Of a stretch of DNA of 41,324 nucleotides, positions 15,822-30,298 are shown piece by piece (positions within the stretch are counted from its first letter, which is position 1; the number at the start of each line of letters is the position of its first letter). This DNA is from a virus. A program made the position numbers and the translations under genes. The DNA lies in IMG/VR virus record IMGVR_UViG_3300035698_004230, positions 1 to 41,324 of that record. One strand, 5' to 3'. Below the pieces are notes generated by a model. That model ran no database searches. It saw only the letters and a program-made list of their open reading frames with translations, and was not told where the DNA came from.

Positions 15822-15846
15822 GTTTCACCTCCTTGTTGTATTATAT

Positions 15847-15876: not shown

Positions 15877-15956
15877 ATGCCAGTATGCTAGAGTAAATAT
15901 ATATAATAAATAATAACATATAATAATATTATCATATATACATTTTAATATATCTA

Positions 15957-16160: not shown

Positions 16161-16161
16161 A

Positions 16162-17276: not shown

Positions 17277-17288
17277 TAGATTTTACAA

Positions 17289-17504
17289 CTAGTCGGTTAT
17301 TTCCACTAGCCCCTTTCCTTCTACGTTGTATATCTTACATTCGCCTTCGTCTATACCGCACTTAGGACAGTAGTCTACTGGTTCTACATCACAGTTTTCA
17401 GGGTTGCCATGAGAGATGTAGCCATGAGTCATGTCAGCTGAGTAGCCTTCCCAGCCACATGGACACTTGACCCAATGAGTCTTGTCATTCTGTCTACTTA
17501 ACAT
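17289..17504 (-). CDS. Small zinc-ribbon protein
   Basis: 71 residues from ATG 17504, chosen because GTAGGAGGG lies just upstream; a longer frame starts earlier but has no site. KCPCGWEG and YCPKCG give two Cys pairs of a zinc ribbon, with EC further on. Overlaps the preceding gene by seven bases. Function unknown. Confidence 0.6.
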   Translation of the reverse strand: MLSRQNDKTHWVKCPCGWEGYSADMTHGYISHGNPENCDVEPVDYCPKCGIDEGECKIYNVEGKGLVEITD

Positions 17505-17701
17505 TTTATCCCTCCTACTATTGGTGTTCTTACTATCAGTCGCTTGCCGCTCCACCCAATGGTTTCCCATCTTCGTCCCTTCAACTTAATAATCATATGA
17601 AGCTTAGGCTCACCATGAATTTCAATACCGCCAACCTTAATTTCTACCCAGCCAACTTCAAAAACTTCCCAATTCTTTACTACTAACTTTTCTTTCATCA
17701 T
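17498..17701 (-). CDS. Small hypothetical protein
   Basis: 67 residues, MMKEKLVVKNWEVFEVGWVE at the start, beta-rich with Trp, Val and Lys, as in small beta-barrel DNA- or RNA-binding proteins. The start overlaps the upstream stop by one base (TAATG) and its end overlaps the zinc-ribbon gene. No family recognised. Confidence 0.55.
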   Translation of the reverse strand: MMKEKLVVKNWEVFEVGWVEIKVGGIEIHGEPKLHMIIKLKGRRWETIGWSGKRLIVRTPIVGGIKC

Positions 17702-17916
17702 TACCTCTTAGGCTTGATATAGTATTCACAGTCCTTACAGAAATCCCTCCCAGTTACTTCAAAGCCCATAAGTGCCCAGCATCCCATCACTCCGTCCACA
17801 GCGTTAGGATAACCACACCAGTCAGGTTGGGGATAGTCCTTAGCAGCTTCCCCCCAAGTCATCTTGGGCAATCCTTGAAACTCCGCCTCCGTTAATTCGT
17901 GAAAACACTTAATCAT
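17701..17916 (-). CDS. Small Cys-containing hypothetical protein
   Basis: 71 residues from ATG 17916, which has CAGGAGG in front; a longer frame lacks one. Contains WCGY, GCW and FCKDCEYYI; the last pair with the earlier Cys could hold a metal. Many aromatic residues. Function unknown. Confidence 0.55.
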   Translation of the reverse strand: MIKCFHELTEAEFQGLPKMTWGEAAKDYPQPDWCGYPNAVDGVMGCWALMGFEVTGRDFCKDCEYYIKPKR

Positions 17917-17985
17917 TTCTACCTCCTGATATAGGGTTAGTGCCACCGCAAGCTAAAATTGTAAGTGAACTCTAAATCTTTTATC

Positions 17986-18363
17986 CTACTCCACTCCTTC
18001 TCGCCCATTAGTTTGCGGATTAACCACCATCTTAATCTCTTCATCATCTCTTCTCCTTAAATAGTCTCCAGTCGTAAAAACAGTCTCCACCCTGGCAATG
18101 TCAACCGACTCTGCTTCGGGCTTTATAGATATTGTTGGTATAGTAGTTGTTTCAATCAGCTTACCCTCATCAGGCTTTGGCTCTGGGACAAATCTTACCT
18201 TTTCACCACCGAGTAGGCACATCTCAATATAGCTTATTGTGTGAGATTGCTCATCGTTCCAGCCAATGAAGTAATATGAGTGTCTGCCCCAGGGTGGTAT
18301 CCATCCCTGTTCTATTAGCTCTATCTCTGTTGGTTTCTCTACTGCCTCTCTCTTATCACTCAT
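17986..18363 (-). CDS. Hypothetical protein with acidic linker
   Basis: 125 residues; AAGAGGAGG precedes the ATG, which overlaps the stop of the upstream membrane peptide (ATGA). Residues 20-60 contain an aromatic patch (WGRHSYYFIGWNDE) and beta strands; the centre is a Pro/Glu/Thr linker; the C-terminus is basic. No family recognised. Confidence 0.55.
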   Translation of the reverse strand: MSDKREAVEKPTEIELIEQGWIPPWGRHSYYFIGWNDEQSHTISYIEMCLLGGEKVRFVPEPKPDEGKLIETTTIPTISIKPEAESVDIARVETVFTTGDYLRRRDDEEIKMVVNPQTNGREGVE

Positions 18364-18533
18364 TTGAACCTCCTCTTTATGAGGACATACTTTGCTTTAT
18401 AGTAAATGGCAACATAAGAATACATAGCGGATAGAAAAATCATTGTCATACCAACAACTAGTTGTGTTAGTGCCCCCTCGTTAGTTGTTATATCCCACAG
18501 AGTCATATCTTCTAACTTTTCCCAGTCCTTCAT
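18360..18533 (-). CDS. Small single-pass membrane protein
   Basis: 57 residues. An acidic N-terminus is followed by one hydrophobic segment (QLVVGMTMIFLSAMYSYVAIYY) and a strongly basic tail (KAKYVLIKRRFK), predicting the C-terminus in the cytoplasm. AAAGGAGGGGAGTG precedes the ATG; the stop overlaps the next ATG. Early phage membrane peptide of unknown role. Confidence 0.6.
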   Translation of the reverse strand: MKDWEKLEDMTLWDITTNEGALTQLVVGMTMIFLSAMYSYVAIYYKAKYVLIKRRFK

Positions 18534-18565
18534 CACTCCCCTCCTTTCCTATTTATTCATCCCCC

Positions 18566-18649
18566 CTGCTGGGGCTGGTTTAAGGCTTTTTCTCACTGGT
18601 ATTTCACAGCCGAACGGAGAGTTTCCTCTTTATCCTGCCACCCCAGCAG
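18566..18649 (-). other. Long-armed inverted repeat / RNA hairpin in gene-free stretch
   Basis: CTGCTGGGG at 18566-18574 pairs with CCCCAGCAG at 18641-18649, with further imperfect pairing outside and inside. The loop holds about 66 bases. The gene-free stretch 18534-18685 contains little else. GCTGGCTCGG just beyond the arm (about 18659-18668) recurs in the hairpin at 15072-15128. Confidence 0.45.
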
Positions 18650-18685
18650 AGGGTTTGTGCTGGCTCGGTCTTTATGAACTGCCTG

Positions 18686-18858
18686 TCAGTTGCGTCTTGT
18701 CTCGTCAGACAGACGGTAGCTAGCCAAGTCAGGTTTAGGCATCCTGTCAAAATAATTATCAAGCCCTGCCCTCATGTCTTCAAGCGCCTTGTCTAGCTCC
18801 CCCCTAACTCCAAGATTGTAGTTTCCTTCTTCGTTGCTGCTGCTTTGTCTACTGCCAT
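18686..18858 (-). CDS. Small protein possibly made by -1 frameshifting
   Basis: ATG 18858, with GAGAGG upstream, opens MAVDKAAATKKETTILELGGS and stops at TAG 18793. At the G6 run (complement of 18799-18804) a -1 shift would continue as ELDKALEDMRAGLDNYFDRM and end at TGA 18686, giving one coherent 57-residue charged helical protein. The -1 frame has no ATG, GTG or TTG upstream of the overlap. Either a programmed slip on G GGG GGA-like bases or a real one-base mutation; both halves look protein-like. Confidence 0.45.
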
Positions 18859-18876
18859 TTCATTACCTCTCTTTAT

Positions 18877-19170
18877 TTATTCAAACTGCGCAAAGAACTC
18901 TTTATCATCAGCCTCAGATACCACTTTCCTCCACTTAGATACAGTAGAGTAATCTATACCAAGTTGTTTACTCGTTGCCCTGACTGTCCCCTTGAATATA
19001 AGTTTCTTTAGACTGTTATGGAACTTCAGCTCTACATACCTCATTAGACGAGTCTTATGGAAGATAGCAGGGACATCATCATAAGTGATAGGCTTACGAG
19101 TGAGATGCTGAAGCTGGACACCCCGAGTCTTCAGTATCTTTCTCTTAATGTCACCAGATTTAGTCGTCAT
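18877..19170 (-). CDS. Helix-turn-helix protein
   Basis: 97 residues. Residues 60-85 (TVRATSKQLGIDYSTVSKWRKVV) form a clear helix-turn-helix of the transposase/sigma-like kind; the rest is basic and helical. TAGGAGATAA precedes the ATG. It could regulate early genes or bind the repeat array at 23.6 kb, but nothing shows its target. Confidence 0.65.
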   Translation of the reverse strand: MTTKSGDIKRKILKTRGVQLQHLTRKPITYDDVPAIFHKTRLMRYVELKFHNSLKKLIFKGTVRATSKQLGIDYSTVSKWRKVVSEADDKEFFAQFE

Positions 19171-19410
19171 TTATCTCCTATACGGTAGTTTAATATCGGG
19201 GAAATAATGGCGGGCATCTGCCTCACTTACCTTATTCCCAAACTTTGCTACATGAGCGTACGCTTTCTCCATTGGAATGTCTACTGGGCATCCACCAGAG
19301 TATACTGCCCAGTCCCTGCCGTGATTGATAGCTGCTGTGATAGCACAAGCATAGTAGTTGGTATTACAGTATCTCGTTCCTCGTAATTCTCTTCCTTCTC
19401 CTGCCATCAT
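19171..19410 (-). CDS. Small hypothetical protein
   Basis: 79 residues with AAGGAGG upstream. Contains three Cys, a patch RYCNTNYYACAITAAINHG and a helical region VSEADARHYFP. Its stop abuts the HTH gene. No family recognised. Confidence 0.55.
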   Translation of the reverse strand: MMAGEGRELRGTRYCNTNYYACAITAAINHGRDWAVYSGGCPVDIPMEKAYAHVAKFGNKVSEADARHYFPDIKLPYRR

Positions 19411-19419
19411 GATACCTCC

Positions 19420-19542
19420 TTATAGCATCGGTGGATTTATTCTCCCATCAAACCAGACTGATACGCCCTTGAAGTAGAGGACTATGGGTATTAACCAGAA
19501 GAGTATAAAGATTATTATCCATTTTACTGGCACTCCCCTCAC
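19420..19542 (-). CDS. Tiny membrane protein
   Basis: 40 residues from GTG 19542, which overlaps the upstream TGA (GTGA). One strongly hydrophobic segment, WIIIFILFWLIPIVLYF, follows a basic VRGVPVK start. A second GTG at 19533 is an alternative start. Function unknown. Confidence 0.5.
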   Translation of the reverse strand: MRGVPVKWIIIFILFWLIPIVLYFKGVSVWFDGRINPPML

Positions 19543-19739
19543 GCTAATATAGCCTTAGGTTGGTGTGTCTTATGTCCTCCTCTAGTTCTTCTTATCTGCC
19601 GAGCTGCACAGGCTGTGCTGTCCTGGCACACATAGTAGTTCTCCTCAATCCCAGGTATCTTCACTAAGGTTACATTGGATGCCTTACATCGTCGGCACAC
19701 TGCCAATCTTACTGGCAGCTTATCTTTAGTATGATGCAT
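19539..19739 (-). CDS. Small zinc-ribbon protein
   Basis: 66 residues. CRRC and CQDSTAC give two Cys pairs separated by about 20 residues, then a basic tail (RQIRRTRGGHKTH) suited to nucleic-acid contact. AGGAAGGAG precedes the ATG. The preceding 52-residue frame overlaps its start by 14 bases. Confidence 0.6.
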   Translation of the reverse strand: MHHTKDKLPVRLAVCRRCKASNVTLVKIPGIEENYYVCQDSTACAARQIRRTRGGHKTHQPKAILA

Positions 19740-19884
19740 AGTTAGACTCCTTCCTAATTCTTTTAGCCCTGTCTCTTAGCTCTATAGTATCACTTATTAT
19801 CGTAGCGGTCAGAGCCAGAAGTTTAAGCCTGATACCGTCTACTATGGCGATGATTTCTTTTATCTCTCTATCTCTAATGTTCAT
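19726..19884 (-). CDS. Small helical hypothetical protein
   Basis: 52 residues, MNIRDREIKEIIAIVDGIRL then a continued amphipathic helix ending in a basic stretch (RDRAKRIRKE). The start lies inside the end of the upstream zinc-ribbon gene, with GGGAG just before it; an ATG one codon earlier is possible. Probably a helical dimer or coiled coil; function unknown. Confidence 0.5.
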   Translation of the reverse strand: MNIRDREIKEIIAIVDGIRLKLLALTATIISDTIELRDRAKRIRKESNYASY

Positions 19885-20116
19885 CATCTCCCTCTTTTAA
19901 CTCGTTATAGTTCATAGCAGGGATTAGGTCTCTCACATCCCACTCAGTATTACAATTAGGACAGAACCAGTGCTTCTCGTCTGTAACAGGCATAGGACGA
20001 TATCTCAGCGTTGAGAAGCATAGAGGGCAGTGATGACTTAGTCCTGTTAGTGAGTCTATATTGTCCTCACTTATTTGGAAGTAATCTTGTGCTTCAGAAT
20101 GTGCGGTGTCTTCCAT
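19874..20116 (-). CDS. Small zinc-ribbon protein
   Basis: 80 residues from ATG 20116, which has GAGGAGGC upstream, rather than from a longer frame without a site. CPLC and CPNC form the zinc knuckles about 25 residues apart; the end is acidic (GDDEH). Overlaps the genes on both sides by small amounts. Confidence 0.6.
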   Translation of the reverse strand: MEDTAHSEAQDYFQISEDNIDSLTGLSHHCPLCFSTLRYRPMPVTDEKHWFCPNCNTEWDVRDLIPAMNYNELKEGDDEH

Positions 20117-20399
20117 TTTTAGCCTCCTCAACTGTTTTAGCACTAAGTATCTTATCCATCTTCTCATCAATACGAGTGCTCATTAGTTCATAGTCATCGT
20201 AACTCTTAGGCTTATACCCGGAAGAAGATAATAGAACTAACATTGTGCTTGTGACTTTAGCGCATCCTAACTCTGAAGGGCAGCCTACACATGAATTGTA
20301 ATTCAGCCTCTGCTCTACACATACCTTGGTGTCTATATCTACTCTATCTCCAGTAGATATCCTGACCATTTCAGCTATCTCTTCTGTGGTTTCGCTCAT
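20094..20399 (-). CDS. Cys-rich hypothetical protein
   Basis: 101 residues. Residues 27-46 have four Cys (VCVEQ, SCVGC, GC), possibly a zinc or Fe-S site, followed by a hydrophobic helix and a charged helical end. AGAGGATTAGC precedes the ATG. No family recognised. Confidence 0.55.
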   Translation of the reverse strand: MSETTEEIAEMVRISTGDRVDIDTKVCVEQRLNYNSCVGCPSELGCAKVTSTMLVLLSSSGYKPKSYDDYELMSTRIDEKMDKILSAKTVEEAKNGRHRTF

Positions 20400-20400
20400 G

Positions 20401-20583
20401 CTAATCCTCTTTCTTATCTTCTAACATATCGGGTCTACTTATAAACCTTGTTGGGTAGCCCTTATTAGTGATAGAGTTAGCACACTCGCAAGAGTTGATT
20501 CCGCAGTGTCCGTAGCCACTATCCTCAAATACCCAGTTCCCACACTCTTCATAGCTACCACGCCAACTATTTACTTCATCCAT
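20401..20583 (-). CDS. Small Cys-rich hypothetical protein
   Basis: 60 residues with four Cys (EECGN, GHCGINSCEC) in the first half and an acidic tail. It is the first gene after the early promoter at 20685-20713. CTGGAGTAGAAC is a fair ribosome site. No family recognised. Confidence 0.55.
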   Translation of the reverse strand: MDEVNSWRGSYEECGNWVFEDSGYGHCGINSCECANSITNKGYPTRFISRPDMLEDKKED

Positions 20584-20684
20584 GTTCTACTCCAGTTGGA
20601 GGGCTGGGAGGTCAAGGCCTACCAATACTGCCTTTGTTAATCTACTATGGTGTTTGACCCTCACATTTTCTACCCTCCATATAT

Positions 20685-20713
20685 ATCATACCATATAGTT
20701 GTCCAGGTGTCAA
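20685..20713 (-). promoter_or_regulatory. Early promoter (sigma70, extended -10)
   Basis: Minus strand: TTGACA (20713-20708), 17 bases, TATGAT (20690-20685) with TGG before it. The last part of the spacer and the -10 are nearly identical to those at 15847-15876. It should start the run 20583 to about 15957. Confidence 0.75.
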
Positions 20714-20744
20714 CTGCGTTGAACTGGTCAACACCTAATAAACA

Positions 20745-20939
20745 TCATCTCAGCTCCTCCTTCTGTGCCTCTACCCTCTCACCGGTCTCAAGGTCGATTA
20801 AGAGGAGAGGTAACTGTTTTCCTCTATACCTCCATTTATGTAGTAACTGCCACCATCTCGGTTTATCTACAGTACGGACAATCTTGAATGTCTTTCCCTT
20901 ATGATGCTTGTTAGCGCTGTAAGGATACTCTAATGTCAT
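20745..20939 (-). CDS. Small basic hypothetical protein
   Basis: 64 residues, rich in Lys, Arg and Trp (KPRWWQLLHKWRYRGKQLP), with a short acidic end. A compact nucleic-acid-binding or inhibitor protein is plausible. Its ATG overlaps the upstream TGA. Last gene before the promoter at 20.7 kb. Confidence 0.55.
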   Translation of the reverse strand: MTLEYPYSANKHHKGKTFKIVRTVDKPRWWQLLHKWRYRGKQLPLLLIDLETGERVEAQKEELR

Positions 20940-21118
20940 AGCCCCAATCCTCTACTATCTATTACCACCCCATTTGCTTCCCAGTCAAGCCCATACAATT
21001 CAAGCTCAGGCTTATCTTCCCAATCAAATGTCTCTCTTGCTAGTTCAATGGCCTCTGCCTTGTTGTCAGCGTCTATGTCATACTCAAATCTAGCCTTGCC
21101 AGTTACCCTATACAGCAT
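20936..21118 (-). CDS. Small hypothetical protein with YD-repeat-like beta fold
   Basis: 60 residues, MLYRVTGKARFEYDIDADNK, then an alpha helix (EAIELARETF) and a further strand. This strand-helix-strand pattern with ADNKAEAIELA is often seen in small phage DpnD/PcfM-like proteins. AAGGAGGG precedes the ATG. Acidic; function unknown. Confidence 0.55.
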   Translation of the reverse strand: MLYRVTGKARFEYDIDADNKAEAIELARETFDWEDKPELELYGLDWEANGVVIDSRGLGL

Positions 21119-21129
21119 AGCTTCCCTCC

Positions 21130-21360
21130 TTATACCTTTAGACCTAATGCTTCCTCCAGTGTATTAGGAAGCATCTCCCATAGGTCATCGTCTAAGTAGT
21201 CCTCCTGCGCTATGTAGCCACCAAACTCAGCAGCTATGTTCTCTGCTCGGTCAGTCAGATACTTAAACCCTTCAGAGTCTGGAACTTCCATGTTGTCCTC
21301 CAGGTGCTTGTAAAGCTCCTCCTTGTTCTTAACTTCAGTGTAGTAACAGAACCCTTCCAT
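21130..21360 (-). CDS. Small acidic hypothetical protein
   Basis: 76 residues with many Glu and Asp (YLDDDLWEMLPNTLEEALGL at the end), the charge profile of a DNA-mimic or of a small inhibitor, though that is a guess. GGAGGAAC precedes the ATG. No family recognised. Confidence 0.55.
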   Translation of the reverse strand: MEGFCYYTEVKNKEELYKHLEDNMEVPDSEGFKYLTDRAENIAAEFGGYIAQEDYLDDDLWEMLPNTLEEALGLKV

Positions 21361-21375
21361 AATGTTCCTCCATTA

Positions 21376-21543
21376 TTATTTACTCGCATGCTCCAGTATA
21401 GCGTATGACCATATCTCTTGCTCTGACTCTACATCATACCAGAGAATCCCGCCATTCTCACATTGTTCTCTGAGTTCGGATAATGATTTAGTATGAGTAT
21501 CATTCACTTCAAACATCTTGGTAATACTGACCGCTACCTTCAT
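21376..21543 (-). CDS. Small hypothetical protein
   Basis: 55 residues, MKVAVSITKMFEVNDTHTKS, an acidic Trp-containing C-terminus. GGAGGTAGCC precedes the ATG and the upstream gene's stop lies within that site. Function unknown. Confidence 0.5.
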   Translation of the reverse strand: MKVAVSITKMFEVNDTHTKSLSELREQCENGGILWYDVESEQEIWSYAILEHASK

Positions 21544-21545
21544 GG

Positions 21546-21695
21546 CTACCTCCTTTCTGAAGCTGCGTACTCCTCCAACTCATCTAAGCTATATATATCC
21601 TCCGCCTCCATTGCTCCCTTCATCAAGCTAAGCATCTTATGACCCAATTGCTTCGCCTGCTCCTCGGCTATCTCGTCCATTGTTCTAGCGACCAT
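21546..21695 (-). CDS. Small helical hypothetical protein
   Basis: 49 residues, almost entirely helical with many Glu, Met and Ala (MDEIAEEQAKQLGHKMLSLM). GGAGGTAGCTA precedes the ATG. Its own last codons AGG AGG form the ribosome site of the next gene. Function unknown. Confidence 0.5.
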   Translation of the reverse strand: MVARTMDEIAEEQAKQLGHKMLSLMKGAMEAEDIYSLDELEEYAASERR

Positions 21696-21708
21696 TAGCT
21701 ACCTCCTT

Positions 21709-21888
21709 TCATTTAGATTTTGCCTTATAGATTGTTAACTTATTTATCAGTGCTCGTATCTCCCGCCCCGCTTGGCCTAGTGTCATTGGCGTCTCCTCAA
21801 CCGGGAACCTGATACCCAGTGCCACGCAGAGACGAGTGATAGTTATCTTCTGTCTTGCTGTAGCTGGTGTTATGTCTCTACTGTCCAT
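21709..21888 (-). CDS. Small basic helical protein
   Basis: 59 residues, basic, with segments TARQKITITRLCVALG and TLGQAGREIRALINKLTIYK that read like two helices, possibly a small DNA-binding fold. A weak site precedes the ATG. Function unknown. Confidence 0.5.
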   Translation of the reverse strand: MDSRDITPATARQKITITRLCVALGIRFPVEETPMTLGQAGREIRALINKLTIYKAKSK

Positions 21889-21946
21889 AGTGATACCTTC
21901 ATCCAGTTAATTCTTACCACTCCACTCCTGTTTTAATCCTCATGTT

Positions 21947-22120
21947 CTACTCCTCAAGCAGTAGTTGAATAAGCAGGTCGTGAACATCAATAAGGACATC
22001 TCCTACAAATGCCTCGTCTTTGATTAGTATAGGATTGTCAACATTGTCAAAGCTATAGGAGTCATCTATGTTCTCAAGCAACTTGACAAGGTCAATCATC
22101 CCATTAGGACTAGTTTTCAT
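21947..22120 (-). CDS. Small acidic hypothetical protein
   Basis: 57 residues, acidic, ending in VHDLLIQLLLEE, probably two helices around a short loop. GGAGGTAGCCA precedes the ATG. The spacer to the next gene (21889-21946) holds a nine-codon ATGAGGATTAAA frame that is probably not functional. Confidence 0.5.
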   Translation of the reverse strand: MKTSPNGMIDLVKLLENIDDSYSFDNVDNPILIKDEAFVGDVLIDVHDLLIQLLLEE

Positions 22121-22155
22121 TGGCTACCTCCTTTCCCATAGTAATTTATTATATT

Positions 22156-22407
22156 GGCTATGCTATGCCGCTCGATAGTTGTTCTACCCTACTACTATAC
22201 TACTCAGCCCGTCAGGATTATCAGGATAGCCACAGTAAGGACACCACTTGCCGTTTGGCGCTTCAGCGGCTGGGAAACCACAACCATTACACCGCTCACC
22301 CTTCCGCTCAAGCTTTGACCAGTACGGGTCGGACCTAACCCAGCGAAACTTATTTAATATCCTCATTGGACACCTCCGCTAATTATTTCGAGCGGCATAG
22401 CATAGCC
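22156..22407. repeat. Perfect 20-bp inverted repeat bracketing a zinc-ribbon gene
   Basis: GGCTATGCTATGCCGCTCGA at 22156-22175 is the exact reverse complement of 22388-22407. The 252-bp unit encloses just one gene, 22184-22366. No clear target duplication flanks it. It could be a miniature mobile cassette, a pair of regulatory sites or a long-loop RNA stem. Confidence 0.85.
22184..22366 (-). CDS. Small zinc-ribbon protein within inverted repeats
   Basis: 60 residues. CNGC and CPYC knuckles with a Gly/Pro-rich spacer form a short zinc ribbon; the N-terminus is basic and aromatic (RILNKFRWVRSDPYW). GCGGAGGTGTCC precedes the ATG. The gene sits alone between perfect 20-bp inverted repeats, unlike its overlapping neighbours, which hints at independent transfer. 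Confidence 0.65.
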   Translation of the reverse strand: MRILNKFRWVRSDPYWSKLERKGERCNGCGFPAAEAPNGKWCPYCGYPDNPDGLSSIVVG

Positions 22408-22469
22408 AGCATATTCAATTGTTAAGGTTCGTTATGTATTCCTTCCCTATTTAATCCTCATGCATTCAA

Positions 22470-22637
22470 TCACTGCCAAGGAGGCAGTTTGAATGCTATC
22501 TGCTCATCCAACTTGTCAATAATTGCTTGGTAGTCAGGGTTCTTATGCTTGCCATTTTCGTCAAACTCATCAGGGCAGGCATCTAACCAGCTGGTAAATG
22601 CTTCCCTGATTGTTTTCAAATCATTAAGTGTGAACAT
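22470..22637 (-). CDS. Small hypothetical protein
   Basis: 55 residues, MFTLNDLKTIREAFTSWLDA then an acidic middle and a Pro/Trp end (KLPPWQ). GGAGGTATGTT precedes the ATG. It is the first gene after the early promoter at 22673-22701. Function unknown. Confidence 0.55.
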   Translation of the reverse strand: MFTLNDLKTIREAFTSWLDACPDEFDENGKHKNPDYQAIIDKLDEQIAFKLPPWQ

Positions 22638-22672
22638 AACATACCTCCTTCCCTATTTCATTCTCATACCTA

Positions 22673-22701
22673 AGTATACCACATAGCAACATCAATGTCA
22701 A
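22673..22701 (-). promoter_or_regulatory. Early promoter (sigma70, extended -10)
   Basis: Minus strand: TTGACA (22701-22696), 17 bases, TATACT (22678-22673) with TGG before it; the spacer end GCTATGTGG is close to those at 15.85 and 20.69 kb. It should drive the small-gene run from 22637 downwards. Confidence 0.7.
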
Positions 22702-22770
22702 TATGTAGTTGATTGTGTCAACATAGCCCGGATACGGCGTGGCTCATTCGTGCGTGGACTAACCACCTAA

Positions 22771-22833
22771 TTGAGTAAAATTGAACAAAACTGAAGCAAA
22801 ATGAAAGGGCTAAGCTGGCAACTCACTTAGCCC
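22771..22833 (-). terminator. Terminator hairpin followed by phased T-tracts
   Basis: GGGCTAAG (22807-22814) pairs with CTTAGCCC (22826-22833). On the minus strand the stem is followed by TTTCATTTTG and further T-runs that form a 10-base tandem pattern (22771-22809; ttgagtaaaa, ttgaacaaaa, ctgaagcaaa). It terminates the 22846-23361 gene. Confidence 0.7.
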
Positions 22834-22845
22834 GTTCACATTATG

Positions 22846-23361
22846 CTAACTTAAACCTTCTGCTTTCAGCAACCACATTCGGACCTTGTAGCGAGAGTTT
22901 CCGTCAGTGTCAGAGTCGTAGGCCTCCTGGAAGGTAGCGCCAGTGTCCTTATATGGCTCAGCGCCATGCTTGTCGAGCAAGTCCTTCGTAGTGACGGAGA
23001 ACTTTTTACCACCGCCACCACCTCCACCTTTCCGAGTAGCCGATTTGGATAGCCGACAGGTTGTCAATTGCTCACCAAAGTCATTGACATACCATACACC
23101 GTCCATTGCTTCCAGAGTCGCCTTGTCTAGGCCGTCCACAATCTTGGATACTGCGGTGTCCATCTTGCCCTTGACGGTAGCAGTGATTGACTCCAGCGCC
23201 TTGAGTTTAGCGTCCTTCTCGGACTTTTCCTCGGCGGCGACCATTTTGGCTATATTAGTGGCAATTCCTTTGACTGCCTTCCAGTCGCCCTTTCCAGTGG
23301 CGTCCTTCATCGCTGCGAGTAGCTCGTCTTTCGACATAACCTTGGTAGTTTCGTCAGACAT
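22846..23361 (-). CDS. Self-contained early gene; basic/Gly-linker protein of unknown function
   Basis: 171 residues. Residues 1-90 are helical with alternating Lys and Glu; VWYVNDFGEQLTTCRL follows; a GGGGGGG linker lies at about 113-119; the C-terminal 50 residues (KFSVTTKDLLDKHG, YKVRMWLLKAEGLS) form a small, possibly winged DNA-binding domain. It has its own promoter (23485-23513) and terminator (22807-22833). By eye its codons are richer in G and C than its neighbours, which suggests strong expression or a different origin. It is the gene nearest the TTnACATAA array and a reasonable candidate for the array-binding protein. GGAGG lies 14 bases before the ATG. Confidence 0.6.
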   Translation of the reverse strand: MSDETTKVMSKDELLAAMKDATGKGDWKAVKGIATNIAKMVAAEEKSEKDAKLKALESITATVKGKMDTAVSKIVDGLDKATLEAMDGVWYVNDFGEQLTTCRLSKSATRKGGGGGGGKKFSVTTKDLLDKHGAEPYKDTGATFQEAYDSDTDGNSRYKVRMWLLKAEGLS

Positions 23362-23484
23362 TTTTGTTTGTTACCTCCATTATTTTGTTTACTTTATATG
23401 GAGGCGATGTTACCACTTCGCCGATATATTATTCAATTGTTAAAGTGCTGTATATATAATCCTCCTCCCCCATTTGATATATCA

Positions 23485-23513
23485 ATCATATCATAATTCC
23501 GGGCTGTTGTCAA
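23485..23513 (-). promoter_or_regulatory. Early promoter (sigma70, extended -10) beside the repeat array
   Basis: Minus strand: TTGACA (23513-23508), 17 bases, TATGAT (23490-23485) with TGA before it. The first array copy is ten bases upstream of the -35 (23523-23531), placing the array where activators or repressors would act. Confidence 0.75.
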
Positions 23514-23522
23514 TAGTATAGT

Positions 23523-23764
23523 TTGACATAACGGAGCAATATTATAAATTAACTAAAATTGTTTTTGCTCAAGTGGAGTTGACTGACCATATACCACTTG
23601 ACATAATGTAACTTGACATAAACAGGTTTACATAAAGTAGCTTTACATAACTAGGTTGACATAACACAGCTTAACATAATGTCATTGGTTTGGCAGCTTG
23701 ACATAATGTATAGCTTTACATAACATATATAGCTGGCAGCTTGACATAAAGCAGCTTAACATAA
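23523..23764 (+). repeat. Array of eleven TTnACATAA direct repeats; candidate replication origin or operator array
   Basis: Copies begin at 23523, 23598, 23613, 23627, 23642, 23656, 23671, 23698, 23715, 23741 and 23756, all in the same direction. Variants are TTGACATAA, TTTACATAA and TTAACATAA; several have AGC before them. Spacing in the core is 14, 15, 14, 15, 14 and 15. The gene-free segment runs from about 23479 to 23841 and also contains a dyad AGTAT...ATACT around 23812-23834. Repeats of this kind suggest iterons for an initiator or a cooperative operator. Confidence 0.85.
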
Positions 23765-23841
23765 TGCTACCACCCTAGCTCATACATACAGTGTTAATTT
23801 TGTTTAGTATACGTCTCTCGAGAATACTCAGATTAGCAAAA

Positions 23842-23955
23842 TCAACCACTACCTAGCTTCTTTACTATCTGCGACAGCACATATATTAGCTTCTGCCTTA
23901 GCCACCACCTGTCAAACTGAGGGAAGTATACGAACTCATCTAGTATCACTATCAT
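23842..23955 (-). CDS. Tiny hydrophobic/aromatic protein
   Basis: 37 residues, MIVILDEFVYFPQFDRWWLR then a basic helical end. AAAGGA lies before the ATG, which overlaps the end of the zinc-ribbon gene in another frame. It borders the repeat array. Coding status is moderately likely. Confidence 0.4.
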   Translation of the reverse strand: MIVILDEFVYFPQFDRWWLRQKLIYVLSQIVKKLGSG

Positions 23956-24208
23956 TAATTAGTCCTTTCACCTTGCCGTCCATTAAGTCATGCATAAACT
24001 TCTCAGTAAGAATCAGATTACCTTGCTCATTCATAGTGGCGTCAAAACCACACTCGCAAGAGAATACATTGTCTTTAATTGAGTTCAGCATACTACAAAG
24101 AGGGCATATGAACTTCTCAAGGTCTGGCATACGGACTGGTGGTATACTTATAATATCGGTCTCTTCAAGCGGCTCCCAATTTGCAAACTCATCTCTTATC
24201 AGCTTCAT
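23936..24208 (-). CDS. Small zinc-ribbon protein
   Basis: 90 residues. CPLC and CECG knuckles at about 35-52 with an acidic N-terminus and helical C-terminus (FMHDLMDGKVKG). Its ATG overlaps the stop of a short interrupted frame (TGATG). Function unknown. Confidence 0.6.
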   Translation of the reverse strand: MKLIRDEFANWEPLEETDIISIPPVRMPDLEKFICPLCSMLNSIKDNVFSCECGFDATMNEQGNLILTEKFMHDLMDGKVKGLINDSDTR

Positions 24209-24279
24209 CAGCTAGAAATTACTCCTTTCTCCATGTCCCACCCGTCACCCTATTTTACTATTGGATACCATTTATCCAC
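24208..24279 (-). pseudogene. Possible micro-ORF interrupted by an in-frame TAG
   Basis: A full AAGGAGGTGAT site is followed nine bases on by GTG 24279: VDKWYPIVK, TAG (24250-24252), then in the same frame GDGWDMEKGVISS and TGA, which overlaps the next ATG. The strong site and the fitted stop suggest that this was one 23-residue frame. Either the first nine codons are a leader peptide or a stop mutation broke it. Confidence 0.3.
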
Positions 24280-24304
24280 TGTGCATCACCTCCTTTCTTA
24301 CAAC

Positions 24305-24679
24305 TTAGTATATGGAGCTATGCTCACTCATGGCTATATCCTCAGGTGTTGGCTTCCTATCATCAGGAGTTACTATCCCTGCCATAGCCTCTAATACAGC
24401 TTTCTCAGGAAGGCCGGACTTTCGTAAGAGTCTAATGTCTTCCAGCTTCTCTAGCGTCTCACGAATCTTGAGTCTCTTACCTATGGCATAATTATATGCT
24501 GTGTCAATTCCGTATTTATGTATAGATATAGAAAACTTAATAGCTTCTGTGAGGTATCTTGGTAGCCATTTACATCTCCAGCAATACTTACATCTCCACA
24601 CACTACCGAAGATATTGATGAAGTGGTGAGTATGTCTCGGGTTATCATCACATCTGTTATCAGGCCAAGTTACTTCCAT
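24305..24679 (-). CDS. Zinc-binding hypothetical protein
   Basis: 124 residues. The first 45 have a Cys/His set (RCDDN, HTHHF, RCKYCWRC) that could hold one or two zincs; then a helical region and a charged helix-turn-helix-like segment (IRLLRKSGLPEKAVLEAM). GGAGGAAGTT precedes the ATG. Possibly a DNA-binding regulator. Confidence 0.55.
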   Translation of the reverse strand: MEVTWPDNRCDDNPRHTHHFINIFGSVWRCKYCWRCKWLPRYLTEAIKFSISIHKYGIDTAYNYAIGKRLKIRETLEKLEDIRLLRKSGLPEKAVLEAMAGIVTPDDRKPTPEDIAMSEHSSIY

Positions 24680-24690
24680 AACTTCCTCCT

Positions 24691-25200
24691 TTATACTTCA
24701 TTTCCCCAGGCATCCCAGTTGTCTCTCCTTTGCCTAGCAAACAGTTCAATCCTTGGTGTTGGACTTGCTTTTTCAATCAGGTCATAAGCAGATGCTGGCT
24801 TCTGCGAGTGCTTTCTTATATCTCCATGTATAATAGTTGTTAGGCATCTATCATTAACTGGCATTGAACCTTTGACCGCAAATAGCAGTTGCTCAGTCTG
24901 TCCCTTAAAGTAATATCCAAATATAGACCTGTTCTTCATCCAGGTGATAGCTGTCTTGTAGCTAAAGCCCCACTCTATTATTACCATGATAGCTGAGGGT
25001 AGTAGAGTATTGGGAGTCCATAGGTATAGATGAGAATTAGGAGCTGATATACTTGGGACTGCTAAGTTCATAATTTCGTCTAACTTCATAGTTTCATAGT
25101 ATTTGGATGCTCCCCAACCCCAGCCTTTTCCGTACTTCCAGGGAGGGTCAGCATAAATGGTTTTGTAGTATCCTTTGTTTTGCCAAATGTCTATTTCCAT
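24691..25200 (-). CDS. MT-A70 family adenine-N6 DNA methyltransferase
   Basis: 169 residues. ADPPW at 17-21 is the catalytic loop of MT-A70 enzymes; LYLWTPNTLL, W-K-x-FGYYFKGQTEQLLFA and HSQKPASAYDLIE, then ELFARQRRDNWDAWGNEV, follow the family order to its usual end. It methylates adenine in DNA using S-adenosylmethionine, most likely to evade host restriction or to mark its own DNA. No restriction partner is nearby. The start overlaps the upstream gene by 53 bases. Confidence 0.9.
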   Translation of the reverse strand: MEIDIWQNKGYYKTIYADPPWKYGKGWGWGASKYYETMKLDEIMNLAVPSISAPNSHLYLWTPNTLLPSAIMVIIEWGFSYKTAITWMKNRSIFGYYFKGQTEQLLFAVKGSMPVNDRCLTTIIHGDIRKHSQKPASAYDLIEKASPTPRIELFARQRRDNWDAWGNEV

Positions 25201-25414
25201 GACTCTTTCCTTCCTTATGCTTTTTCCTTATAGCTTCCCAATCTCCAGCTTTAACCATGTATACTGGGAATAGCACTCCGCACCAGCACTCAAATATATT
25301 CTTACCAAACGCGGGATAGTGAACAGGACAATGTATCTCTATGCTTAGCTGTGAGCCAAGTTTATCAATCTCCTCAAAGCTTCCCTCTCCCTGCGTATAC
25401 GCTCCCCAAGTCAT
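25148..25414 (-). CDS. Small Cys/His-containing protein overlapping the methylase
   Basis: 88 residues. HCPVHYP and CWCG could bind zinc; the C-terminal basic part lies over the start of the methylase gene. AGTAGAGC precedes the ATG. The large overlap makes the last 17 codons less certain, but the stop is clear. Function unknown. Confidence 0.5.
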   Translation of the reverse strand: MTWGAYTQGEGSFEEIDKLGSQLSIEIHCPVHYPAFGKNIFECWCGVLFPVYMVKAGDWEAIRKKHKEGKSHGNRHLAKQRILQNHLC

Positions 25415-25418
25415 TGCT

Positions 25419-25832
25419 CTACTCCCATGATTCTGGCGCTCCTCCTACTAATTCTATCTCATCCTTTAAGTTATTTAACATCTCCCCAAGGTGGATAAGT
25501 CTATCTACATCTTGACCGTCATTCATCTCCTTCTTCAACCTCTGGACGACAGACGCTCTCCGTCTCAGTATGGATGTTCTCTTTACTCTGTCTGGGTCAG
25601 TAATAATCGCCCTCTTTCTACCTCTTGTCTCCACCACTGGCTTAGACTCTATGGCAGCTATGCCTTGGTCTATCCAGCACTGTATATGGAAACTTCTCCT
25701 ATACCACCAGGTCTTGCCAGTTTTCAGCTTCATATAATGCTGACATACTACTTGGTATTCTCCATTAACTATAGGCTTCTCGCAGTAGACACAGGTGCCT
25801 TTCTTCCTAGTCTTCCTAATCCAGACATTCAT
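25419..25832 (-). CDS. Zinc-finger protein with basic and coiled-coil tail
   Basis: 137 residues. CVYC, then a conserved HY...FHIQCW pattern (C15, C18, H, C) resembles a PARP/LIM-like finger in which residues 12-55 bind one zinc. The following part is basic (TRGRKRAIITDPDRVKRT) and then helical/coiled coil. Start overlaps the HTH regulator stop (ATGA). Probably a DNA-binding partner of that regulator. Confidence 0.6.
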   Translation of the reverse strand: MNVWIRKTRKKGTCVYCEKPIVNGEYQVVCQHYMKLKTGKTWWYRRSFHIQCWIDQGIAAIESKPVVETRGRKRAIITDPDRVKRTSILRRRASVVQRLKKEMNDGQDVDRLIHLGEMLNNLKDEIELVGGAPESWE

Positions 25833-26107
25833 CGTCTTTTATCCAAGTATCTCTTTACTGTCCCCATGCGAACTTTAAGCTCTCTGGCTATATTGATTAG
25901 TGATTGCCCATCACTTCTCATTTCTCTAGCTCTAGCTACCCTCTTATTCTTTAGTGCAGAATAAGGACTTATAGTAGACTCAAATACAATACATCTATCA
26001 TACGGACATTTTTGAGTGCAGAAGTCTTTACCGACCTGGCTCTCAGGGTCAGTTATTCCTGCCTTTGCCATAGCTGGACATATTCGGTATATTTGACTCT
26101 TAACCAT
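25829..26107 (-). CDS. Cys-cluster HTH regulator at the divergent promoter
   Basis: 92 residues from ATG 26107. A longer frame from 26128 would begin upstream of the -10 box, so it cannot be the start from this promoter. Four Cys (IC, FC, KC, RC) at positions 11-40 may hold zinc or an Fe-S cluster. The C-terminal segment ARAREMRSDGQSLINIAREL followed by KVRMGTVKRYLDKRR is a resolvase-like helix-turn-helix. The predicted transcript start (about 26110) is only three bases before the ATG, so the message may be leaderless, as in lambda cI. First gene of the early arm, opposite the late promoter; an early/late switch protein is a fair guess. Confidence 0.65.
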   Translation of the reverse strand: MVKSQIYRICPAMAKAGITDPESQVGKDFCTQKCPYDRCIVFESTISPYSALKNKRVARAREMRSDGQSLINIARELKVRMGTVKRYLDKRR

Positions 26108-26116
26108 CTTACATAT

Positions 26117-26145
26117 ATTATACCACACAGATTATGAGTTGTCAA
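26117..26145 (-). promoter_or_regulatory. Early-arm promoter, divergent from the late promoter
   Basis: Minus strand: TTGACA (26145-26140), 17 bases, perfect TATAAT (26122-26117) preceded by TGG. It drives the HTH regulator and the methylase operon. The AT-rich stretch 26146-26213 separates it from the late promoter. Confidence 0.8.
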
Positions 26146-26213
26146 TGGGCAGTATAAATATATTTAATAATACATATCTTAATATTATTATACGATATTA
26201 TTCAATATATGAT

Positions 26214-26242
26214 TTGACATAAGCACTAGGATATGTTATAAT
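26214..26242 (+). promoter_or_regulatory. Late promoter 1 with TTGACATAA element
   Basis: TTGACA (26214-26219), 17 bases, TATAAT (26237-26242) with TGT before it. The -35 is part of TTGACATAAG, the exact motif of the array at 23523-23764. AT-rich DNA upstream may be an UP element. Confidence 0.82.
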
Positions 26243-26272
26243 GTAATAGAATTAGTGGGTAGGAGATTCAAT

Positions 26273-26854
26273 ATGACTATGCCAACTGAGATAGCTCCAG
26301 GTGATGCTGAACAAATTGCCAAATCTATTGTTCCATACAATCGTGACGATGCTAGATGTAGATACCTTGGGCTTAGAGCTAGTGGGTTTGGCATTAGAGA
26401 GGCGCTAAGGCTAATAAGTAAAGCCCAGAGTACTCTATCATCCTGGAGACATGATGAGGTATTTGTTGACCTTGAGTCGAGGATACCAGAGCTTAGACAG
26501 AAACTAGCATTAGAGTATGTAAATCTAGAGTTCCTCCGTAACTACCGCCTTATCCTTGAGAAAGACTATAGAGTGATTTCCGCCAGTCTGAGTAGTAAGA
26601 AGGATGAGGATGGTAATCTTATCCCTATGAATAAGCAAGACCACGAATATCTAATCAAGATGCGTGGGCATTATACTCCACAGCAGTTACAGATTATGGA
26701 GACTCTATTCATGGCGGATAAGAGTGGGCAGGGGTTTGACTTTACCAACTTCGTATTATCTATGTCAAGAACCAAAGAAGAGGTAAAGATAGAAACAAGA
26801 CAAGCCAACAAACCTGAAATATCTCCGATTGAGATAGCTAAGGATAAAACCTAA
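26273..26854 (+). CDS. Small terminase subunit candidate
   Basis: 193 residues from ATG 26273, which has AGGAG eight bases upstream; the longer GTG frame runs over the ribosome site. Residues 25-60 (LGLRASGFGIREALRLIS, STLSSWRHD) form a helix-turn-helix as in small terminases that recognise the packaging site. The middle is a long helical, charged region for oligomerisation. It lies directly before the Arg-rich protein and the large terminase. Confidence 0.65.
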   Translation: MTMPTEIAPGDAEQIAKSIVPYNRDDARCRYLGLRASGFGIREALRLISKAQSTLSSWRHDEVFVDLESRIPELRQKLALEYVNLEFLRNYRLILEKDYRVISASLSSKKDEDGNLIPMNKQDHEYLIKMRGHYTPQQLQIMETLFMADKSGQGFDFTNFVLSMSRTKEEVKIETRQANKPEISPIEIAKDKT

Positions 26855-27006
26855 TGCCAAGGAGACCAACAACTCCAAGGGTGAGAGCCGCAGCTAGGCA
26901 CAATCTTAAAAAGGCTCAAGTGTCAAGAATAAGGATGCGGACTCCCCGTGCTGCCAACAGAGTAATGAAACAGCGTAGTCGCACATCAACAATGCGTAGG
27001 AGATAA
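26854..27006 (+). CDS. Arg-rich 50-residue basic protein
   Basis: ATG overlaps the terminase stop (TAATG); the stop lies one base before the large terminase ATG. The chain has 15 Arg, 3 Lys, one His and no acidic residues (MPRRPTTPRVRAAARHNLKK at the start, TMRRR at the end), like a protamine. Its own final AGGAGA codons supply the ribosome site of the large terminase. DNA binding or condensation during packaging is a reasonable inference; no family recognised. Confidence 0.65.
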   Translation: MPRRPTTPRVRAAARHNLKKAQVSRIRMRTPRAANRVMKQRSRTSTMRRR

Positions 27007-27007
27007 G

Positions 27008-28612
27008 ATGAACCCTTCAGATGCTATGAAGATGCTCCTGTCAGATAGACGTGCCTTCATTGAGACACTGATGATGATAGAGGATAAGAATAGGCAGCTT
27101 GTTCCTTATGTCCTTAATCCTATTCAGGGAGATATGGAGGAAACCTCAACTGGCAGAGACGCTTATGTTAAGCCAGCACAGGTTGGAGCCAGTTCATATT
27201 TTATCTGCGATTTCCTCATTGACTGTATAACCATTCCTGGAACTACAGCCATCATAATCTCCTATGATGAGTTTATCACTGGGCGACTACTTCGCAAGGC
27301 TCAAAGCTTCTATGATATACTTAAGGAGCGGATACCGTCTATCCCAGAGATGCATAAGAAATCTACCTCTGAGAAGACATTTAAGGATGTAAACAGTAGT
27401 TTCTACATCGCATCAGCTAGAGGCTTTGCTCTTCCTCGTGGTGAGCCTATACATGACCTGCTATTTGATGAGTTCGCATTCTGGCCTCCTGGTGCAGCTG
27501 AAGATGTATTTGCGGCTGCTCTACAGCGCGTCCCGCTTCTTGAGAGTACTAAGGTAAGAATACTGTCTACTCCTAACGGTGAGGATAATGACTTCTATGA
27601 AGTATACACTGCTGCAAAAGAGGGCAAGGAATTAGGTAAGTCAATATTCAAGTCTCACTTCTATACTTGGTATCAGCACCCAGAGTATATATTGAAGTCT
27701 GATAGTCCATTTGCTCTTCCCGGCGATGATGAGCAGTTACTAGACAATATTGATTCTGATGAAGCTAATCTAATGGTGAGGTTTGAAGGGCTTGGCATAT
27801 CTATCCAGGAAGCACACGATAAGATAAGATGGAGAAGATACAAGATAGCCGAGATGTCCAGCCTCAGACGGAGTGGAGAGACACGGCTCCTCTTCTCCCA
27901 GGAATACCCAGAGGATGATATATCTTGCTTCCAGGCTGCTGGAGATATGTGGTATGATAGTGGAGTTATAAACGACAAGGTAAAGGACTGTTATCCAGCT
28001 TCTTATCATAATATGTTTGCTGACATCTGGTATCCTCCAGAGGAGGGGAAGTCCTACTTGGTATCTGTAGACCCAGGGCTGGGTAAGATATCAAAGTCAG
28101 TAGCTACCGTATGGCATTTCAGAGAAGCGTATAAGAGCGGAGACGACGACATCCCAGCAGAATATATCCACTGTGCTACATTATCTGGATTATATGAAGA
28201 CTACGATATGGCAGCTAAGTCAATGGAGTTAGCCAAGTACTACAATAGAGCTATAATAGCTAATGAGGATACACTTGGTATAACCTCCCATTTGAAGAAC
28301 TACCCCAACCTCTACTACCGTACTGACCCTGTAACTGGTAAGGTTGGAAAGAACATAGGCTGGCAGACAAGTAAATCTACTAAACCTTATATGTGTAATG
28401 AGCTTGGTAGATGCTTGGGCAAAGTCACAACTCATGACATAAGACTAATAGGACAACTAAGAAACATCAGAGACATAGGAGGACGCCCCACCTCTATAGG
28501 AGAAGATGATGTCCACGACTCAGCAGCTATAGCTATGGTATGTCGTAATGCTTCATCAGTAGATGCTGGTTTGGTAGGATGTAGTGGCTGGGACGAAAAT
28601 TGGGGAGAATAA
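27008..28612 (+). CDS. Terminase large subunit
   Basis: 534 residues; the motor that packages DNA into the procapsid. Walker A is VKPAQVGASS (54-63), the KxxQvG variant usual in terminases; Walker B LLFDE is at 151-155; STPNG at about 190 is coupling motif III. The nuclease domain shows SVDPGLGK (about 354), IIANED (about 420) and DDVHDSAAIA (about 500), the acidic RNase H-like triad. Length is normal. AGGAGATAAG precedes the ATG. Confidence 0.92.
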   Translation: MNPSDAMKMLLSDRRAFIETLMMIEDKNRQLVPYVLNPIQGDMEETSTGRDAYVKPAQVGASSYFICDFLIDCITIPGTTAIIISYDEFITGRLLRKAQSFYDILKERIPSIPEMHKKSTSEKTFKDVNSSFYIASARGFALPRGEPIHDLLFDEFAFWPPGAAEDVFAAALQRVPLLESTKVRILSTPNGEDNDFYEVYTAAKEGKELGKSIFKSHFYTWYQHPEYILKSDSPFALPGDDEQLLDNIDSDEANLMVRFEGLGISIQEAHDKIRWRRYKIAEMSSLRRSGETRLLFSQEYPEDDISCFQAAGDMWYDSGVINDKVKDCYPASYHNMFADIWYPPEEGKSYLVSVDPGLGKISKSVATVWHFREAYKSGDDDIPAEYIHCATLSGLYEDYDMAAKSMELAKYYNRAIIANEDTLGITSHLKNYPNLYYRTDPVTGKVGKNIGWQTSKSTKPYMCNELGRCLGKVTTHDIRLIGQLRNIRDIGGRPTSIGEDDVHDSAAIAMVCRNASSVDAGLVGCSGWDENWGE

Positions 28613-28624
28613 GGAGGAATATAA

Positions 28625-30298
28625 ATGGATACTTTATCTGGCAGGGAAGTAGTCGCGAGGTGTAATGGACTTAGCAAATACTGGAACAAGCGTAATACTA
28701 AGTTTAAGGACTGGTATGGTCTAATACAGATGAAGGACACTTTGAAGCAAAAGAACATGGAGTCATTCGTAGGTAATGACCCGAGGTCTTCATACAATCT
28801 TATCCTTAGTATGCTAGACCAGAGAATCCCGCATAAACTCCCGCCAAAGGACATAAGCGTTGACGAGGTAATAGCAGCTGCTGAGTTGTCTAAGATGTTT
28901 GATACAGCTTGGGATGATGTATACTGCACATATAGGCGTAGCGGGAGATACTGGCTTAGAGACTTAATTGGCTTCCTAATAGCCACTGGCTGGTATTCAG
29001 TATTTGCTACTATATCTCTTGATGGCACTAGGTGTATATCGGAAGTGTGGAATCCTGCTACAGTATTTCCATCTTGGGGTGATGACCTCTATGAGTGCGC
29101 TCACATATTCCCAATATCTGCGGCGCAAGCTAAAAGAATGGCAGCTAGAAACGAATGGACATTAAAGCCTTCAGGCTCTGGTAAGCTAGTAATAAATGAC
29201 CTCTGGATTAAAGAAGGTGAGGCTATCTATAATACAATATCTTTAGATAATGACCTTGTTAAGCCTATGACTCACGAAACTAGATTCCATCGTATTCCTA
29301 TATTTACAGGGCCTGTTGGCGGACTGCCTGATACAGGGGAACTAGCTCCTCCAGGGTCTGGAGATAACTGGAAGGCTGAAATAGGACAGAGCCCTCTTGC
29401 TGCTAATGAGCGTATATATAAGTACTGGAATAAGTGGTGGTCATTCTCTATGCAGTTACTTCGTGATACTGCTCAACCTAGAACATACGAGAAGAGTAGA
29501 AGTGGCACACAGATAGTTAAGCCAGAACAATGGTATAAAAGAGGCGCTCACTTTAAGATGGCTCCTGAAGACGAGATAGGGTTCATAGCTCCTCCAGCCA
29601 TCCCAGTCGAGCTGAGGTCTGCTCAGCTTGACATGGAGGCTATGATGCAGAGAGGAGGCCCTTCATGGGCTATGTATGGGAATGTAGCTGGACAGATGAC
29701 CTCCTATGTTATGAGTCAGATAACCGCCAGCACTAATCAGATATCTAAGGCTTGTCATCATGGCGTAGTAGACTGCATAACAGATATAGATAACTTCTGG
29801 TTTGATATGATGAAGGAGCAACACTACAAGCCATATGGAATGTCTGTGCCTAAGAATCTTCCAGATGGAGCTAAGATAACAGCCTCATATGAGCTGAGGA
29901 TACCTGGGGACTTAGTCAATAGAGCAACAACTGCCAGGATGCTTAATCCAGGCTTTACTCTGCCTGAGGAAATGATATATGAGGAACTGTTCCCAGAGGT
30001 CAGAAATCCTGTAGAGGCTATTGCTCAGGTAAGGGCTGGGTTAGCTAGAAAACATCCTATTAACGTTATGATAAGTCTAGTGCAGTCATTTAGAGAAGAG
30101 GCAGCCCTACTGAGAAAGGCTAAAGATAAGGCAGCAGCCATACTCTATGAGAGAGCTGCTGAAAGAATAGAGGCTGAAATAACTGGTGAAGGTGAGGAAG
30201 CTGAAGGCGCTGGAGCTGCTAGAGGGGAGCCTGGTTTGGTAAAGCCTGACTCTACCACAGTCCCACCGACTGCAAGTATACCGGCTATTCCAAAATAA
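28625..30298 (+). CDS. Portal protein
   Basis: 557 residues following the large terminase at the expected place. N-terminal helical part, a central region with WNPATVFPSWGDD and GRYWLRDLIGFLIATGW, and an alpha-rich stem region fit dodecameric portals; the C-terminal 60 residues are acidic, then Gly/Pro-rich. The portal forms the ring through which DNA enters and to which the tail attaches. AAGGAGGAATATAA precedes the ATG. Confidence 0.8.
   Translation: MDTLSGREVVARCNGLSKYWNKRNTKFKDWYGLIQMKDTLKQKNMESFVGNDPRSSYNLILSMLDQRIPHKLPPKDISVDEVIAAAELSKMFDTAWDDVYCTYRRSGRYWLRDLIGFLIATGWYSVFATISLDGTRCISEVWNPATVFPSWGDDLYECAHIFPISAAQAKRMAARNEWTLKPSGSGKLVINDLWIKEGEAIYNTISLDNDLVKPMTHETRFHRIPIFTGPVGGLPDTGELAPPGSGDNWKAEIGQSPLAANERIYKYWNKWWSFSMQLLRDTAQPRTYEKSRSGTQIVKPEQWYKRGAHFKMAPEDEIGFIAPPAIPVELRSAQLDMEAMMQRGGPSWAMYGNVAGQMTSYVMSQITASTNQISKACHHGVVDCITDIDNFWFDMMKEQHYKPYGMSVPKNLPDGAKITASYELRIPGDLVNRATTARMLNPGFTLPEEMIYEELFPEVRNPVEAIAQVRAGLARKHPINVMISLVQSFREEAALLRKAKDKAAAILYERAAERIEAEITGEGEEAEGAGAARGEPGLVKPDSTTVPPTASIPAIPK

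Follow-up and report, generated by a model that had tools for sequence, protein, structure and literature searches.

The window, that is, the whole 41,324-nucleotide stretch of viral DNA analysed here, bears an array of eleven direct TTDACATAA repeats (D = not C) next to the promoter of its first early gene. Judged by its sequence, this is an array of XerD-type half-sites, which forms part of a promoter network found in a single phage clade and in one lineage apart from it. The role of the boxes at promoters as operators is well supported. We lean, if by a little, towards the interpretation that the array serves as an operator of the first early promoter, where it would be bound by the host XerD/XerC and thereby control phage transcription, perhaps also titrating the protein. 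The host XerD/XerC is the likely binder, as the comparisons described below suggest.

The array and the promoters of the window

The window is a complete virus record comprising the whole contig. Its bases 1-127 are identical to bases 41198-41324, and since such 127-base identical ends speak for a circle or for circular permutation, the genome probably forms a circle of 41.2 kb or is circularly permuted. End repeats of 99-141 bases were seen in the relatives. The features relevant to the array are as follows:

18877-19170, minus strand: gene for an HTH protein (family F06) that is the foremost candidate if the binder is encoded by the phage; the array-less genome G001 has it too
22846-23361, minus strand: first early gene (171 aa, family F23/F65/F95), whose distant homologues lie downstream of arrays in relatives
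23362-23935, no strand: gene-free segment of about 570 bases containing the promoter and the array, delimited by the ORF list and the sequence
23485-23513, minus strand: early sigma70-type promoter TTGACA-17-TATGAT with TG before the -10, 11 of 12 consensus matches
23523-23531, plus strand: promoter-proximal box, TTATGTCAA in gene-ward reading, ending 9 bp upstream of the early-promoter -35
23523-23764, plus strand: TTDACATAA array of 11 boxes, all exact matches
26214-26242, plus strand: late promoter TTGACATAA..TATAAT upstream of 26255-26854 and the terminase, 12 of 12 consensus matches, the -35 lying within one box
36214-36243, plus strand: late promoter TTGACATAA..TATAAT upstream of the capsid unit (36267-), the -35 lying within one box

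On the plus strand between 23523 and 23764, TTnACATAA is matched exactly 11 times in a single orientation, with starts at 23523, 23598, 23613, 23627, 23642, 23656, 23671, 23698, 23715, 23741 and 23756. In the full 41,324-base record, both strands included, 15 matches were found vs. 1.5 ± 1.2 expected from dinucleotide shuffles, so that 11 boxes within 242 bases of one strand are far beyond chance. The eleven repeats of one direction reported by the first-pass annotation are thus borne out, as is its description of a fixed ACATAA preceded by a variable third base: G occupies this position in six boxes, T in three, A in two, and C in none of the 11. The two bases preceding the core are a purine and then mostly C or G, and the box is better read as the 11-mer R[C/G]TTDACATAA. 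The regular pitch of 14-15 bases, also claimed earlier, holds for six of the ten box-to-box intervals (75, 15, 14, 15, 14, 15, 27, 17, 26, 15) and fails for those of 75, 27, 17 and 26. The copy at 23523 stands apart from the rest, and the 14-15 rhythm is interrupted by three gaps.

The segment had been described as gene-free, with an isolated early promoter beside the array, and on both points we agree. The region of about 23362-23935 has no credible ORF and is flanked by two leftward early genes, while the TTGACA-17-TATGAT promoter on the minus strand (23513-23485) points away from the array and into 22846-23361. The 171-aa protein encoded there gave a low-confidence helical model, too weak for naming a function. 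The 9-bp gap between the box end and the early -35 is identical in the window and in the genomes G008, G010 and G015. An explanation of the repeats as mere promoter elements (repeated TTGACA) was rejected: within the array, the box spacing yields poor -35/-10 pairs, and the conserved TAA and the array itself need a cause beyond promoter function.

The single TTGACATAA copies at 26214 and 36214 are not random. In the array-less relatives, TAA follows TTGACA at the matching terminase-unit promoter in 6 of about 43 cases, so the box at the late promoter is weak evidence when taken by itself. Divergently from the terminase unit, the window encodes a 99-aa protein with a resolvase-type HTH_7 domain (25829-26128), with weak homologues encoded in both G006 and G010.

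An AT-rich, gene-free stretch with direct repeats is also what an iteron-type replication origin with a phage initiator would look like, and a phage origin was among the earlier candidates. However, the turning points of the cumulative GC skew lie at about 8 kb and about 26 kb, where the direction of transcription changes, and not at the array; no initiator was identified, and the same boxes occur at distant late promoters. An origin at this place is therefore scarcely credible. The centromere-like site proposed along with it gains no support either, as no partition gene was recognised in the window.

Boxes at the promoters of related phages

The phage of the window is a member of a large family, with a related terminase encoded by 420 IMG/VR stretches. 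No near DNA match to window positions 15000-30000 was found among 50,697 phage records, whose terminase relatives, among the matches listed, are at most 27% identical. Many of the contigs that were retrieved solely through the box pattern proved to belong to this same family. In the terminase tree, seven array genomes (G004, G006, G007, G008, G009, G010, G015) group together in one region; the window lies far from this clade, in an array-less part where its nearest neighbours are short contigs, and such a separation suits the recruitment of a shared host factor. Of the 42 long relatives, which were searched over their full length, 10 have any close pair of boxes. Conservation among relatives, by which the first-pass annotation proposed to judge the array, is thus mixed: a single clade and the lineage of the window have arrays, and most relatives have none. 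Arrays are recurrent rather than common to all, which implies either a separate gain in the window, or many losses, or an exchanged regulatory region.

The array genomes have intergenic clusters of boxes before the homologue of 22846-23361, the 15145-15762 unit, the terminase unit and the capsid unit. When boxes were counted within -60 to +3 of the -35 start, they were found at 28 of the 40 strong sigma70 promoters of the seven array genomes vs. 6 of 80 in fifteen array-less relatives, the former count being in part not independent of promoter choice, because a TTGACA in the box raises the promoter score; boxes upstream of the -35 are free of this bias. The reversed control motif was found at none of the 40 strong promoters of the array genomes. 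At late promoters of these genomes, the boxes mostly point downstream and the -35 lies inside the last one, as in G006, where four boxes are placed at -48, -29, -13 and 0 relative to the -35 start. The early promoters inspected mostly have boxes of the opposite orientation, which end just upstream of the -35. The boxes thus hold a fixed position relative to the sigma70 promoter, as would be anticipated for an Xer-type operator, and the "cooperative operator" among the earlier candidates is strengthened, the boxes being tied to promoters both in the window and in a clade of its relatives.

The same distribution could result from a phage-encoded monomeric repressor that occupies the boxes in the L5 stoperator manner and keeps the genome silent, the HTH protein of 18877-19170 or another early protein being the candidate. 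Boxes at such a share of strong promoters are what an immunity repressor would need. L5-type repressors, which are encoded by the phage, bind as monomers to more than 20 asymmetric sites correlated with the direction of transcription (PMC9283540), and repeated asymmetric sites do lie at most promoters of the array genomes (28/40, as above), all of which encode the F06 protein. On the other hand, F06 is also encoded by the array-less G001 (revealed by a profile search and missed by BLAST clustering), and searches of unrelated array phages and of chromosomal array loci did not find it. Neither an integrase gene nor a gene recognisable as that of a repressor was seen. Among the early proteins scanned for repressor families, weak HTH matches were the sole result, and the structure model of the 18877-19170 protein was too weak for naming a function. 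Moreover, a phage repressor leaves unexplained both the identity of the box with a XerD arm and its recurrence at xerD, xerC and sepF under the same not-C rule. We consider such a repressor, the chief alternative to the Xer reading, rather unlikely.

A raw scan of IMG/VR for three boxes returned 41 contigs, vs. 14 for a composition-matched control and 40 for the alphaproteobacterial-type XerD motif, so that the test motif by itself is not enriched over the control motifs. The non-coding, non-tandem class was the only one to show enrichment, with 22 of 31 for the test motif vs. 3 of 8 and 4 of 26 for the controls. The scan with the alphaproteobacterial-type motif had been intended as a positive test; it yielded mainly coding or tandem repeats and neither helps nor refutes.

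Boxes were also seen in other phages. An unrelated group (L012, L022, L025, L034, L035; GC about 54%) bears the array TTGACATAAN4TTGACATAAN9TTTACATAA upstream of an apparent terminase small subunit gene, and in four of these five a gene for a Xer-like tyrosine recombinase lies about 2-3 kb away. In the phage contigs L016 and L018, boxes are numerous, point in either direction and precede terminator-like hairpins.

Other elements were noted at promoters within the family. LexA-like GAACNNNNGTTC boxes occur in relatives (L237:5416, 9307, 19086; L234:1606; L241:492; G009:13169; L277:6916, 7004), several of them at strong promoters, including promoters that correspond to boxed ones. These boxes suggest Gram-positive hosts and SOS control, and their presence at corresponding promoters means that borrowing host regulators may be a habit of this phage family. 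In another clade (G001:20451, L240:2640, L245:4649, L248:5206), an inverted repeat around GTTGCA/TGCAAC, variable in spacer and sequence, precedes early promoters near the -35.

XerD arms and arrays in bacterial chromosomes

In reverse complement (TTATGTnAA), the box is the XerD arm of dif, with the same position variable. The XerD arms tabulated by Carnoy and Roten (TTATGTTAAAT, TTATGTAAAGT, TTATGTCAAAT and similar) have reverse complements that equal the box (PMC2731167), and all 11 window copies conform to the 11-bp XerD arm TTATGTNAANN; the published arms compared are those of other taxa and may differ from that of the window's host. Inspection of the sequence showed that none of the 11 window copies is followed by a XerC-like arm at a distance of 6 (6-8) bp, so recombination is not expected.

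Pattern searches of Oscillospiraceae and Lachnospiraceae genomes revealed no dif site whose XerD arm is of the box type. For Oscillospiraceae, no convincing dif candidate emerged from several pattern designs or from a complete list of the boxes in three genomes. A dif-like site was found in Psychrobacter. The assignment of the box as a XerD site therefore rests on other taxa and on the xer-gene context.

This context emerged from a search for three successive boxes in 84,980 genomes of bacteria and archaea, which gave at least 118 loci, mostly, among the matches listed, in Lachnospiraceae and Oscillospiraceae. At least 99 of the loci are non-tandem arrays with non-identical spacers and at least 19 are exact-tandem. 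Among the matches listed, at least 20 of the 99 non-tandem arrays belong to spoIIM-xerD, at a near-constant 750-910 bases upstream of xerD; at least six lie directly upstream of radA-xerC, at least one near a further xerD homologue, and at least nine upstream of sepF. None of the 19 exact-tandem arrays among the matches listed is located at xerD, xerC or sepF. The arrays before spoIIM-xerD (L109, L088, L104, L184 and 16 more) and radA-xerC (L110, L113, L171, L179, L148, L097) are those of Oscillospiraceae. Their position before these operons makes xer autoregulation probable.

The third base is never C in the boxes of the phage clade (0/37), xerD (0/50), radA-xerC (0/31) or sepF (0/35), whereas C was permitted by the search and is common in chance tandem arrays. 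As the not-C rule holds in all groups, the phage arrays and the xer/sepF arrays have one recognition rule in common. The window array thus has the same box, the same not-C third base and the same non-phased direct arrangement as the members of the proposed Clostridia Xer regulon. At sepF, the cases inspected have an array upstream and, after it, a promoter with its -35 in a TTGACATAA box, just as at the phage late promoters.

At the Lachnospiraceae sepF loci L152, L092, L130, L137, L169 and L101, there are at least three boxes and a promoter with the -35 in a box, and in five of these six an inverted box comes after the array. In one Eubacterium genome, a three-box array (L135:7547-7581) stands directly upstream of a gene whose start, MAKGGLGRGLNTLI, resembles that of ParB/Spo0J. 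In three Oscillospiraceae genomes (G094:C63:39982, G095:C1:132168, G017:C38:23955), TTGACATAA lies beside the DnaA-box-like TGTGGAAAA/TGTGGATAA, which perhaps marks the oriC/dnaA region.

The chromosomal arrays resemble the operators of a small regulon for cell division and dimer resolution, and they could be served by another transcription factor of the host, one in charge of xerD, xerC and sepF in Clostridia, the likeness to dif being convergent. The failure to find dif with a box-type arm in the Oscillospiraceae and Lachnospiraceae genomes searched agrees with this. We nevertheless hold it to be improbable, since the box sequence is recognised by XerD in other bacteria, and since asymmetric 11-bp sites with an unphased pitch of 13-18 would be more in keeping with a recombinase that binds as a monomer than with a dimeric or OmpR-type factor.

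According to work cited in PMC12322038, XerD unloads SMC in Bacillus at XerD-specific sites, a non-recombinase role. The boxes might by analogy be XerD-only sites that evict SMC from phage DNA, or else sites of partition or chromosome tethering, with no part in transcription. Direct arrays devoid of XerC arms fit sites of this kind. The fixed placement at promoters in the relatives, with a constant gap to the -35 or with the -35 inside the box, would be left unexplained, and we regard this possibility as very improbable.

Proposed mode of action and comparison with known systems

The first-pass annotation had named a phage protein as a possible binder, but the identity of the box with the XerD arm, together with its recurrence at the xerD, xerC and sepF promoters, speaks for a host protein. 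Neither the window nor the array-clade genomes yielded a xer gene. With one rule of recognition shared by all these arrays, the simplest interpretation would have Xer proteins occupying the promoters of their own genes and the sepF promoter, with the phage relying on the same host protein. A published hint of a regulatory role of this kind is available from Pseudomonas aeruginosa, where deletion of xerC raises the expression of phage-derived pyocins, partly apart from recombinase activity, and where XerC was put forward as a possible regulator of transcription at places other than dif (PMC9431673, PMC8609362).

In the mechanism that we propose, each box would be an asymmetric site for one XerD monomer, corresponding to the XerD half of dif with no XerC half. 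The host XerD and/or XerC would act as a non-catalytic transcription regulator that autoregulates the xer genes and is borrowed by the phage. Left uncovered, the late promoters, near-consensus and perfect in their hexamers, would be active immediately, and a host Xer monomer sitting on the -35-containing box may keep them shut. The eleven-copy array on each new phage genome would soak up the limited host protein, such that the late promoters might open once the phage copy number exceeds it; this titration timer is a proposal. The broader concept, in which XerD, either alone or together with XerC, regulates transcription through arrays of its own at xerD, xerC and sepF and is a master regulator of nearly all promoters in several phage lineages, the large array being a timer coupled to replication, is put forward tentatively, with somewhat less than even confidence.

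If true, a recombinase of dimer resolution would also be a transcription factor linking cell-division genes, its own synthesis and phage development. The published idea of a Xer protein regulating away from dif (PMC9431673) would become testable, and TTDACATAA arrays at promoters would provide a signature for finding such regulons in bacteria and phages.

Compared with known systems, the array shares with dif the 11-bp XerD arm (ATTTAACATAA / ACTTTACATAA / ATTTGACATAA), which matches the box and varies at the same position; it differs from dif in that the XerC arm and the 6-bp centre are missing, and many direct half-sites take the place of one 28-bp site. Phages of the CTX type integrate via the host XerCD (PMC2731167), and the window resembles them in the use of host Xer and a dif-like sequence, but they have one recombination site, and no integration site was seen in the window. 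With the operators and stoperators of L5 and cluster A, the boxes have in common that asymmetric sites are repeated at many phage promoters and that orientation follows transcription (PMC9283540); there, however, the binder is phage-encoded and the sites are scattered singly, while the window box is that of a host recombinase site and of host promoters and forms dense arrays.

The array also resembles the sites in Bacillus subtilis that, as Karaboja et al. reportedly found in 2021, are functional for XerD without XerC, dif or recombination. These XerD-specific SMC-unloading sites lie near the chromosome terminus and act on SMC, whereas the phage boxes lie at promoters. Finally, the array bears likeness to the phages that borrow the host LexA for repression, in that a host regulator of chromosome maintenance would be placed at phage promoters, although in our case it would be another host protein acting on other sites.
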